Source: a virus
Length of the DNA stretch: 61,692 nt
Direction: 5' to 3' (one strand)
IMG/VR virus record: IMGVR_UViG_3300007734_000739
Span: 1-61,692 of that record
A program made the translations under genes and the position numbers. Of the stretch, positions 19,888 through 21,271 are shown one piece after another. Numbering within the stretch: the stretch's first letter is position 1; each line of letters starts with the position of its first letter. Below the pieces are notes generated by a model. The model ran no database searches. It was given only the letters and a program-made list of their open reading frames with translations, and was not told the origin of the DNA.

Positions 19888-20175
19888 ATGCGCAGGGCAA
19901 ATCGTGTGGATGCCAATCAGGATCAGATTGTTGAGACTTTACGGGCTTGCGGTGCATATGTACGGGTGGTAACGATGGGGGATGGGGTTCCTGATCTGCT
20001 GGTTGGATACAGGGGATATACGCTGCTGCTGGAAGTTAAGGATGGCAAGAAGCCTCCGTCTGCGAGGGAGTTGACTCCGGCAGAGAAGAAGTTCTTTGAT
20101 GAGTGGACGGGCGGAATGCTGGCAGTGGTGAACAGTGTTGAAGAGGCTTTAGAGATTTTGAAAAAATGTGTATGA
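19888..20175 (+). CDS. VRR-NUC-like nuclease, 95 aa
   Basis: The protein has the compact VRR-NUC layout: an N-terminal helix (RVDANQDQIVETLRACGAYV), then GVPDLLVGYRGYTLLLEVKD with the PD...(E)VK catalytic elements, and a C-terminal helix (LTPAEKKFFDEW). Small stand-alone VRR-NUC proteins of phages are structure-specific nucleases, possibly resolving branched DNA during replication or packaging. The ATG is the only sensible start. No clear ribosome site is visible because the 16-bp palindrome lies there. Confidence 0.8.
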   Translation: MRRANRVDANQDQIVETLRACGAYVRVVTMGDGVPDLLVGYRGYTLLLEVKDGKKPPSARELTPAEKKFFDEWTGGMLAVVNSVEEALEILKKCV

Positions 20176-20228: not shown

Positions 20229-20257
20229 GTGGGGTCTTGATCGACCCCACTTTTTTT
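20229..20257 (+). terminator. Rho-independent terminator after the VRR-NUC gene
   Basis: Perfect 8-bp stem GTGGGGTC (20229-20236) / GACCCCAC (20243-20250), loop of 6, then seven T. It separates the nuclease transcript from the tRNA genes. Confidence 0.85.
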
Positions 20258-20457: not shown

Positions 20458-20534
20458 GCCCAGTTGGCGAAATTGGCAGACGCAGCGGTCTTAGAAACCG
20501 AAAGCTGAAGGTTCGAGTCCTTCACTGGGCACCA
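20458..20534 (+). tRNA. tRNA-Leu (TAG) with a very short variable region
   Basis: Acceptor stem GCCCAGT / ACTGGGC, leucine-like D arm (GGCGAAATTGGCAGACGC), anticodon loop CTTAGAA giving TAG, T arm GAAGG-TTCGAGT-CCTTC and encoded CCA. It follows tRNA-Tyr after one base. The variable region is only about 5 nt, whereas bacterial leucine tRNAs have a long variable arm, and the first anticodon-stem pair is G-A. Identity is taken from the anticodon and the D arm. Confidence 0.8.
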
Positions 20535-20535
20535 C

Positions 20536-20563
20536 TTGACACAGCCTGAAATTTGTGTAAAAT
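20536..20563 (+). promoter_or_regulatory. Sigma70-type promoter of a small RNA
   Basis: TTGACA (20536-20541), 16-bp spacer, TAAAAT (20558-20563). It starts 2 bp after the tRNA-Leu CCA end and points into a non-coding unit that ends in a terminator, so transcription would begin near 20570. Confidence 0.7.
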
Positions 20564-20569
20564 TATTCG

Positions 20570-20690
20570 CAGCTAGGACGTGGAACTCCAATGCAATTGA
20601 GCCGTTAAGTCAAACTCCGACCCCGCATGGGGTGCCATTTCTCCAAAAGAGTGATGGGTTCCACCGGGGTTTGACTTAACGGTTTTTTTT
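20570..20690 (+). ncRNA. Candidate small RNA of about 120 nt with a three-way junction
   Basis: Between the promoter and the T-run there is no plausible reading frame, but there is clear structure. A hairpin lies at 20586-20601 (one bulge). A 14-bp perfect closing stem pairs 20602-20615 with 20669-20682. Inside it are a CCCC-GCAT-GGGG hairpin (20621-20632) and a hairpin pairing CCAT/ATGG and CTC/GAG around CAAAA (20635-20657). Together these make a three-way junction followed by eight T. The 5' end is estimated from the promoter. I do not recognise the family. Confidence 0.65.
20602..20690 (+). terminator. Terminator formed by the small RNA closing stem
   Basis: CCGTTAAGTCAAAC (20602-20615) pairs perfectly with GTTTGACTTAACGG (20669-20682), followed at once by eight T (20683-20690). 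The large internal domain is unusual for a simple terminator, so this stem probably both ends and folds the small RNA. Confidence 0.75.
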
Positions 20691-20699
20691 ATTGTTTGT

Positions 20700-21110
20700 T
20701 TCCATGCGCAGCCGTACTCCATACGATATTAAGCACCTGCATGGGTGGCGTGGAAGAGAACACCGATCCCCAAGGACGTAGATCCGGCGTGATGCACCCG
20801 CGCCCCCTAGTAGCGAAAGCGAACAGGATATACAGACTCCCACTTAAATGGGGAAAAGCCAGTTGATTCAGCAGTGGTAACCATTCCACTAATCACGCAC
20901 AGAAGGCCAGCGAGGTTCTCTGTGACGTAAGTGAATAGGCAGCGGAATAGCTCTCCGATAGCCGACAGTAGGGGAAACCCGAACACGGTAGAGTAGTCTG
21001 GTAAAGGATCCGTGGAGCCGCACTCCTCTGGCAGGCAGGCTTCATGGGTAAGAGTAATCTTACATGGGGATATAACTGGTAGGTGTTTGTCCTACCTGTG
21101 TGGTAGATGA
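20700..21110 (+). ncRNA. Non-coding stretch of about 400 nt, possible large structured RNA
   Basis: No convincing gene lies here on either strand. Several stems are visible on the plus strand: CACC/GGTG (20734-20747); TCCCA/TGGGGA near 20838-20853; GTGG/CCAC (20874-20889); GGG-GAAA-CCC (20971-20980); CACGG/CCGTG (20984-20988 with 21010-21014); GGAG/CTCC (21014-21026); GTAAGA-GTAA-TCTTAC (21048-21063); GGTAGG/CCTACC (21078-21096). A possible long-range pair is CAGACT (about 20833) with AGTCTG (about 20995). Three loops are GNRA type. Strand and ends are inferred from location between the tRNAs and rightward genes. Confidence 0.4.
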
Positions 21111-21151: not shown

Positions 21152-21271
21152 ATGTGGGATGTGCTGGTAACGTTGATCCTGATGGGCTTTGGCGCATTCA
21201 TGGTGATTGTTTTGGGTGCTGTGTTTATTGCAGCGCTTTTCTATATGCAGAACGGAGGACGGGATGACTGA
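21152..21271 (+). CDS. Small membrane protein, 39 aa
   Basis: Starts MWDVLVTLILMGFGAFMVIV after an AAGGAGG ribosome site. One hydrophobic segment covers residues 4-27, followed by a short polar tail. The stop overlaps the start of the next gene by 8 bp. A half copy of the dispersed palindrome (CTGGTAACGTT) lies in its first codons. It is the first gene of the string of tiny rightward genes. Function unknown. Confidence 0.6.
   Translation: MWDVLVTLILMGFGAFMVIVLGAVFIAALFYMQNGGRDD

Follow-up and report, generated by a model that had tools for sequence, protein, structure and literature searches.

What kind of element is encoded by the roughly 120 nt just downstream of a tRNA-Leu gene in an uncultivated phage, and on what would its product act? 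The stretch of DNA analyzed here (the window; 61,692 nucleotides) is a 61.7 kb virus record from a tailed phage, in which terminase, portal and major head protein genes were recognized. The terminase is nearest to those of freshwater and marine phages, such as DSL-LC04 and the pelagiphages HTVC023P and HTVC027P. An earlier note, made from sequence alone, had proposed that a self-contained unit of promoter, three-way-junction RNA and terminator lies beside the tRNA genes and represents an independently expressed phage small RNA (sRNA). Positions given below are those of the window, and the RNA features and the first open reading frame after them all lie on its plus strand.

Promoter, transcript and fold of the small RNA

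Genes for tRNA-Tyr and tRNA-Leu lie upstream of the sRNA, and the latter ends at 20534. A sigma70 promoter (20536-20563) begins 2 nt further on, with a -35 box TTGACA at 20536-20541, a 16 nt spacer and a -10 box TAAAAT at 20558-20563, matching the consensus at 11 of 12 positions. At least 10 of the 12 sigma70 positions were also matched in 99 of 127 relatives scored. The promoter holds the same position in the relatives as in the window, with a median of 51 nt between the end of the -10 box and CCGACCCC. The predicted transcript begins at about 20570, as judged from the position of the -10 box, and ends with the T-run at 20690, a length of about 120 nt (about 119 nt in the mechanism proposed below). 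No plausible reading frame crosses it: the sole frame has 47 codons, starts at a TTG inside the -35 box and lacks a ribosome site.

The folding energy was -60.7 kcal/mol, compared with -40.9 ± 3.9 kcal/mol for dinucleotide shuffles (z = -5.1), and none of 200 shuffles was as stable. The minimum-energy fold opens with the 5' hairpin P1 (20572-20594; GC..GGA-CGUGGAAC-UCC..GC), which displays a seed in its loop. The terminator stem P2 comprises 19 bp in the window, formed by 20601-20619 with 20665-20682 and extended by flanking A-U pairs; across the family it measures 19-22 bp. It encloses P3 (20620-20633; ACCCC-GCAU-GGGGU, with arms at 20620-20624 and 20629-20633, from the minimum-energy fold) and P4 (20635-20657; CCAUUUCUC-CAAAA-GAGUGAUGG, with arms at 20635-20643 and 20649-20657), which together with P2 form a three-way junction. 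The seed core GUGGAAC in the P1 loop (20580-20586) pairs with GUUCCAC (20658-20664), directly before the P2 3' strand, and so forms a pseudoknot. The 3' strand of P2 and the eight T of the terminator (20683-20690) complete the unit (20665-20690). The conserved sequence core of the sRNA consists of CCGACCCCGNAUGGGGUG and CCACCGGGGU.

Most of the earlier note's description held, namely the promoter, RNA and terminator beside the tRNA genes, the 2 bp distance from tRNA-Leu, the two hairpins inside the main stem with a further hairpin 5' of them, the absence of a reading frame and the lack of a match to known RNAs. Its 14-bp stem was an understatement, and it missed the pseudoknot.

An inverted repeat of variable sequence was observed in many promoter spacers, in the window (20542-20557) and in relatives (for example, ACACGTCCTGAGACGTGT in L123 and CACAGTTTGAAACTGTG in L117). 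The excess of pairing was small (4.7 versus 4.1 bp) and not universal, so that a covarying operator hairpin in the spacer remains no more than a possibility.

Covariation of the helices and the pseudoknot

To assess the structure, we used an alignment (A1) of 68 sequences less than 86% similar to one another. P2 was paired in 98.7% of cells, with both sides changed at 11 of 21 pairs, and G-U pairs were kept at alignment columns 70, 86 and 87. In P4, all eight aligned pairs were doubly changed. P1 with GTGGAA in its loop was present in 82% of members, as against 6.6% with shuffled arms. The pseudoknot (P1 loop GTGGAAN with N'TTCCAC) was paired in 99.5% of cells, and its outer pair, alignment position 45/136, occurred as all four Watson-Crick pairs (AU 22, GC 22, CG 13, UA 9, with 2 unpaired). 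Pairing was lost in slid controls.

Since GGGG, CCCC and CCAC were part of the search pattern, these columns alone prove nothing; members reached by other routes remedy this. P3 is nearly invariant in relatives, partly as a result of the fixed pattern, and was kept in members found through a pattern for P2 only. Outside the search pattern, compensated pseudoknots were found in L312 (GTCGAAAC/GTTTCGAC; 46.6 bits to the covariance model of the family, R1), L346 (TTGGCGTC/GACGCCAA), L376 (TGGCACTT/AAGTGCCA), L276 (TGGTAAC/GTTACCA) and L416 (GTGAGACG/CGTCTCAC). Because these outliers carry compensating changes, we regard the pseudoknot as established by covariation. A test blind to sRNA type, on 59 non-redundant units, gave -16.7 kcal/mol for cognate pairing against -14.6 kcal/mol, matched by 0 of 5000 permutations.

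The earlier note had named loss of the stems in relatives as the outcome that would refute it; the result was strongly the opposite, as all helices covary. An independently expressed sRNA should have its own promoter and a Rho-independent terminator as its 3' end, and both are present, as sequence features only. With the covariation and a universal terminator, the promoter supports the proposal of such an sRNA. We consider the structure near certain; expression and function are inferred. A CsrA-type sponge with GGA in the loop was also considered and was rejected by inspection, since the single loop GGA is paired in the pseudoknot.

Relatives and distribution

A BLAST search returned one annotated relative, the metagenome-derived MW202545.1, with the same promoter and stems in different letters. 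The IMG/VR pattern scan, together with other scans, yielded at least 139 loci, about 114 of them distinct. The distinct members number more than 110, all in IMG/VR contigs except MW202545.1. Model R1 matched the window at 20559-20688 with 109.3 bits, and its matches on the reverse strand reflect the palindromic terminator and not a second RNA. Where records were searched whole, each phage had a single copy. In MW202545.1, the hypothetical protein UOF78434.1 (5882-6109; L001:3475-3702) is annotated across the sRNA and into the following Betaproteobacteria-1 RNA, and is probably not a real gene.

Neither the window sRNA nor its counterparts in about 40 other loci reached the gathering score of any Rfam 15 family, and relaxed E-values gave only chance-level matches over the window sRNA; cmscan matches to Xist and ncS16 were far below the cut-off. 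Neither ARAGORN nor Rfam matched tmRNA, 6S, SRP RNA or riboswitch classes in the window, and cmscan found no GOLLD or ROOL there. A pattern scan of genome contigs gave 34 hits, all of which proved on inspection to be chance matches in G+C-rich genomes. The sRNA was not found in plasmids by pattern scan, nor in cultured phages, where no other sRNA types were found either; the terminase relatives DSL-LC04, 023Pt_psg01, HTVC023P and HTVC027P lack it. Model R1 found no member in 399 Burkholderiales genomes, a weak negative given stricter filters, no positive control and limited sensitivity. A pattern for the head of the larger RNA described below found nothing in these 399 and 398 phylum-level genomes. 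Our search of the available literature found no paper on Betaproteobacteria-1 and no phage-wide RNA catalogue; a published catalogue of structured viral RNAs may number this family.

A tRNA gene lies within 800 nt upstream in only 10 of 107 members. The tRNA linkage is thus incidental, and we rejected the tRNAs as meaningful partners of the sRNA. The sRNA often lies near replication or recombination genes (PD-(D/E)XK exonuclease, helicase, primase, ParB), and flanking genes differ between loci while the spacing of promoter, P1 and terminator is fixed. In the window, a small nuclease gene (19888-20175; endonuclease/Holliday junction resolvase in PHROGs, VRR-NUC-like) was observed just 5' of the tRNAs, with a strong terminator near it at 20229-20257. 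The first co-directional open reading frame after the RNA modules (21152-21271) encodes 39 aa, membrane-like, behind an AAGGAGG ribosome site, and had no PHROGs match.

A linker complementary to the 5' segment

Beyond the T-run, the window contains a linker (20698-20712) composed of GUUUCCAUG (20698-20706) and AGC (20710-20712), which are complementary to CGUGGAAC (20579-20586) and GCU (20572-20574) of the sRNA and would form with them a helix, P0. In the predicted folds, a transcript ending at the terminator forms P1, whereas one extended by 34 nt to 20722 forms P0, the energy changing from -52.4 to -64.4 kcal/mol (a gain of 12). Other members have a comparable linker, for example TTTTCCACGCCCAGCC, between the T-run and the following module, complementary to their own 5' segment GCTAGGxGTGGAA.

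Pairing of the seed with its own linker was stronger than with exchanged linkers (0 of 5000 and 0 of 3000 permutations), also when permuted within a module type (-14.2 versus -13.2 kcal/mol; z = -4.7). Two segments served as controls: the downstream one was without effect (z = 0.1), and the one within the sRNA had a weak effect (z = -1.7). Because relatedness inflates permutation tests, we quote a non-redundant test on a set collected through the modules, comprising 48 units with seeds less than 70% identical: own linkers gave -13.1 versus -9.9 kcal/mol (z = -8.4), with pairs such as GTTGCGGTCGT/ACGACCGCAG in L384 and GTTGCCGTGGAAA/TTTCCACGGCAA in L414. These duplex energies ignore intramolecular competition. 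That the complementarity of the linker tracks its cognate sRNA is shown. In L119, L145, L224 and L232, an extra hairpin module follows the T-run and the linker stands behind it, still complementary. In some members, such as L140 and L201 (with GTGGCAAC), the module follows the T-run with hardly any linker in between.

The extra module is a closed hairpin of about 100 nt (GAAACTGGACNGGTANCGGGTTAGCGCC...CAGTTTC). Between terminator and linker it was seen in L119, L145, L210, L224 and L232, and the same module also occurs in L352, L381, L392, L397 and L398.

A larger structured RNA follows the unit

Directly after the T-run, members have 250-500 nt without a clear gene. In the window, this region holds a structured RNA module of about 350 nt (20713-21059) with a head beginning CCGTACTCC and a body containing GTAGCGAAAGCGAACAGGATATACA, shared with eight loci (L019, L140, L151, L155, L167, L201, L226 and L288). 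Its alignment, small like those of the other larger RNAs, showed double changes in 26 of 52 predicted consensus pairs. Downstream modules of at least five kinds occur, assigned to classes by short motifs; they measure about 120-400 nt and usually stand behind a promoter-sRNA-terminator unit.

In nine loci (L001, which is MW202545.1, and L031, L057, L113, L152, L179, L216, L223 and L233), the RNA directly downstream of the sRNA is Betaproteobacteria-1 (RF02932). The cmscan match in these relatives lies downstream of the sRNA and not on it, and RF02932 was not matched in the window. Burkholderiales genomes, too, contain Betaproteobacteria-1, there without this sRNA unit upstream. Upstream of one such copy (L294:1000-1500), we observed a different promoter and terminator (AAAGCCAGTCATTTGACTGGCTTTTTTTT), possibly another type of the same plan.

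The association was also approached in reverse. Scans with two module heads gave 95 non-redundant sites, of which 89 had, within 260 nt upstream and usually behind a promoter, a T-run closing a terminator stem of 10 or more pairs, compared with 51 of 600 random windows for stem and T-run. The modular coupling of an sRNA unit to a larger RNA is therefore shown. The upstream units are of several types: the window sRNA is type 1; type 2 is about 170 nt long and has a covarying pseudoknot of its own; and at least one further type starts with GTTGNCGTAG. The description of this third type rests in part on the type-blind tests, and a pattern written for it returned type 1 only.

Type 2 was seen before the same larger RNAs in L313-L328 (for example L313:3179-3345), with a core GGGCTTCGTCAAAGCGCATGGAAGG and a terminator stem AACCCTTATTGAG/CTCAATAAGGG. 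Heads of module A without an evident sRNA unit directly upstream were observed in L362, L387 and L389. The larger RNA of the window also holds CCCCCTAGTAGCGAAAGCGAACAGG, which we take to resemble the well-known 23S rRNA segment AGUAGCGGCGAGCGAA; this likeness may reflect a shared three-dimensional motif.

The earlier note's "self-contained" thus failed in part: two elements that it missed, the complementary linker and another structured RNA, regularly follow the sRNA.

A self-targeting leader RNA as the favored explanation

We favor the explanation that this element is a self-targeting leader sRNA working like IsrK or the P4 CI RNA, although we would give it slightly less than an equal chance; expression and regulation are inferred. 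Host sigma70 RNA polymerase would start near 20570, and most transcripts would end at 20690, yielding a stable RNA whose P1 loop GUGGAAC is held in the pseudoknot by GUUCCAC, within the domain that the terminator stem closes. Read-through transcripts would carry, a few bases later, the linker complementary to the same 5' segment. In them, P1 and the pseudoknot would give way to the longer helix P0, beyond which the larger structured RNA and, after it, the early operon would come. Folding, processing, termination or expression of the read-through RNA may then be decided either in trans, by the short RNA, or in cis, by the leader itself. This could happen because the partners of the 5' segment are mutually exclusive, being either the P1 arm and the pseudoknot or the linker. 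This exclusivity, together with IsrK as an experimentally worked case of the plan, is why we prefer this reading.

The promoter, terminator, helices and pseudoknot covariation on which the scheme rests are shown, and a self-targeting RNA should have a complementary target in the same transcript beside it, as is the case here. Transcription, partial read-through, the switch in vivo and trans action on the linker are inferred, and so is the putative purpose, which may be autoregulation or a control, resembling immunity, over the downstream RNA or early operon. Several points count against the explanation. P1 and the pseudoknot sequester the seed in the short form, an awkward arrangement for trans action; the target is the start of a structured RNA and not a ribosome site, and the regulated output is unidentified; P0 could be structural only; and, as noted above, the linker is almost absent in some members.

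Alternative explanations

The main rival, which remains possible, is one long multi-domain RNA resembling GOLLD or ROOL, with the sRNA as its 5' domain, P0 as its closing helix and a weak or incidental T-run. The close association of unit and larger structured RNA, the greater stability of P0 over P1 in the extended transcript and the mosaic exchange of domains all agree with it, as does the frequent location of the large phage RNAs GOLLD and ROOL next to tRNA islands (PMC12286853). However, members keep a G+C-rich stem of 19-22 bp with 7-8 T behind it, the textbook form of a strong terminator, the pseudoknot closes the fold without the downstream part, and the Burkholderiales copies of Betaproteobacteria-1 manage without the unit upstream.

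A stand-alone sRNA acting in trans on host or other phage mRNAs, the linker being an autoregulatory side site or a remnant, appears unlikely. In its favor are its own strong promoter and terminator, a compact and stable fold, and a conserved core (CCGACCCCGNAUGGGGUG, CCACCGGGGU) as a potential protein-binding site. However, the 5' segment drifts with its own linker, which fits a self-target and not a fixed host target.

Two further readings are very unlikely. The first is a DNA-level element, such as a replication origin, packaging signal or recombination hot spot with hairpins, for which the frequent proximity of replication and recombination genes and a change of GC skew sign near 20 kb could be cited. 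Against it, the promoter and T-run are strand-specific and fixed in position, the G-U pairs kept in P2 are an RNA signature, the skew change follows gene strand, and the neighbors vary. The second is a packaging RNA like the pRNA of phi29, which is about 120 nt long and has a three-way junction and long-range loop-loop pairing. The size, the junction and the pairing of a loop with a distant strand are similar, but the loop pairing of the sRNA is intramolecular, its terminase neighborhood is inconsistent (16 of 114 loci; TerL of the window is 14.5 kb away), and the four TerL relatives named above do not carry it. Finally, a mere tRNA-operon terminator with a chance promoter, in keeping with its place directly after tRNA-Leu, is all but excluded and indeed already refuted, as tRNAs lie upstream in so few relatives and as promoter, P1 and pseudoknot are conserved.

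Implications

A bolder reading than the self-targeting leader, which we hold to be less likely than not, is an RNA-only modular system of a kind not described before, in which two co-adapted noncoding RNAs, an sRNA of several exchangeable types and a likewise exchangeable larger RNA whose linker covaries with the sRNA 5' end, operate as a pair without a protein component. If true, it could be, for example, an immunity, exclusion or counter-defense device with variable specificity. An understanding of the locus would tell us whether interchangeable RNA pairs are maintained by phages much as immunity or anti-defense genes are. The family described here is large, aligns well and covaries strongly; it has no counterpart in Rfam and, within the searches made, none in cultured phages, in plasmids or among 84,980 species represented by one genome each. 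The joint variation of seed and linker predicts self-recognition with phage-specific pairing, and the orphan family Betaproteobacteria-1 gains a context as the second half of a two-RNA locus.

Comparison with known systems

Compared with phi29 pRNA, the sRNA differs in topology and has no link to packaging genes, and membership was rejected. Betaproteobacteria-1 is its neighbor in nine loci and not the sRNA itself, and the window has another module in that place. GOLLD and ROOL, large structured RNAs of phages that sometimes lie next to tRNAs (PMC12286853), are comparable in kind to the downstream module. The present RNAs have no Rfam match to either; the modules are about 120-400 nt long, come in many types and usually stand behind a promoter-sRNA-terminator unit.

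The closest parallels are drawn in plan; no relation of the sRNA to IsrK or P4 CI was found via Rfam. The P4 CI RNA, with seqA and seqC, is a small RNA of a leader that pairs with flanking leader sequences and controls the same transcript (PMC4825925). Unlike the present sRNA, it is processed and not self-terminated, and it acts via premature termination. IsrK of the Salmonella prophage Gifsy-1 is an sRNA with its own leaky terminator, passed by part of the transcripts, and it acts in trans on its own read-through transcript, in whose inactive fold the sRNA region pairs downstream (PMC4825925). IsrK has been shown experimentally, whereas the present mechanism is inferred; IsrK controls orf45/anrP translation, whereas the present linker opens a larger structured RNA, and the covarying pseudoknot belongs to the present family. 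Both elements are nevertheless phage-borne, with their own promoter and intrinsic terminator, and as in IsrK, the read-through RNA is predicted to hold a sequence that pairs with the sRNA region in an alternative fold to its own hairpin.
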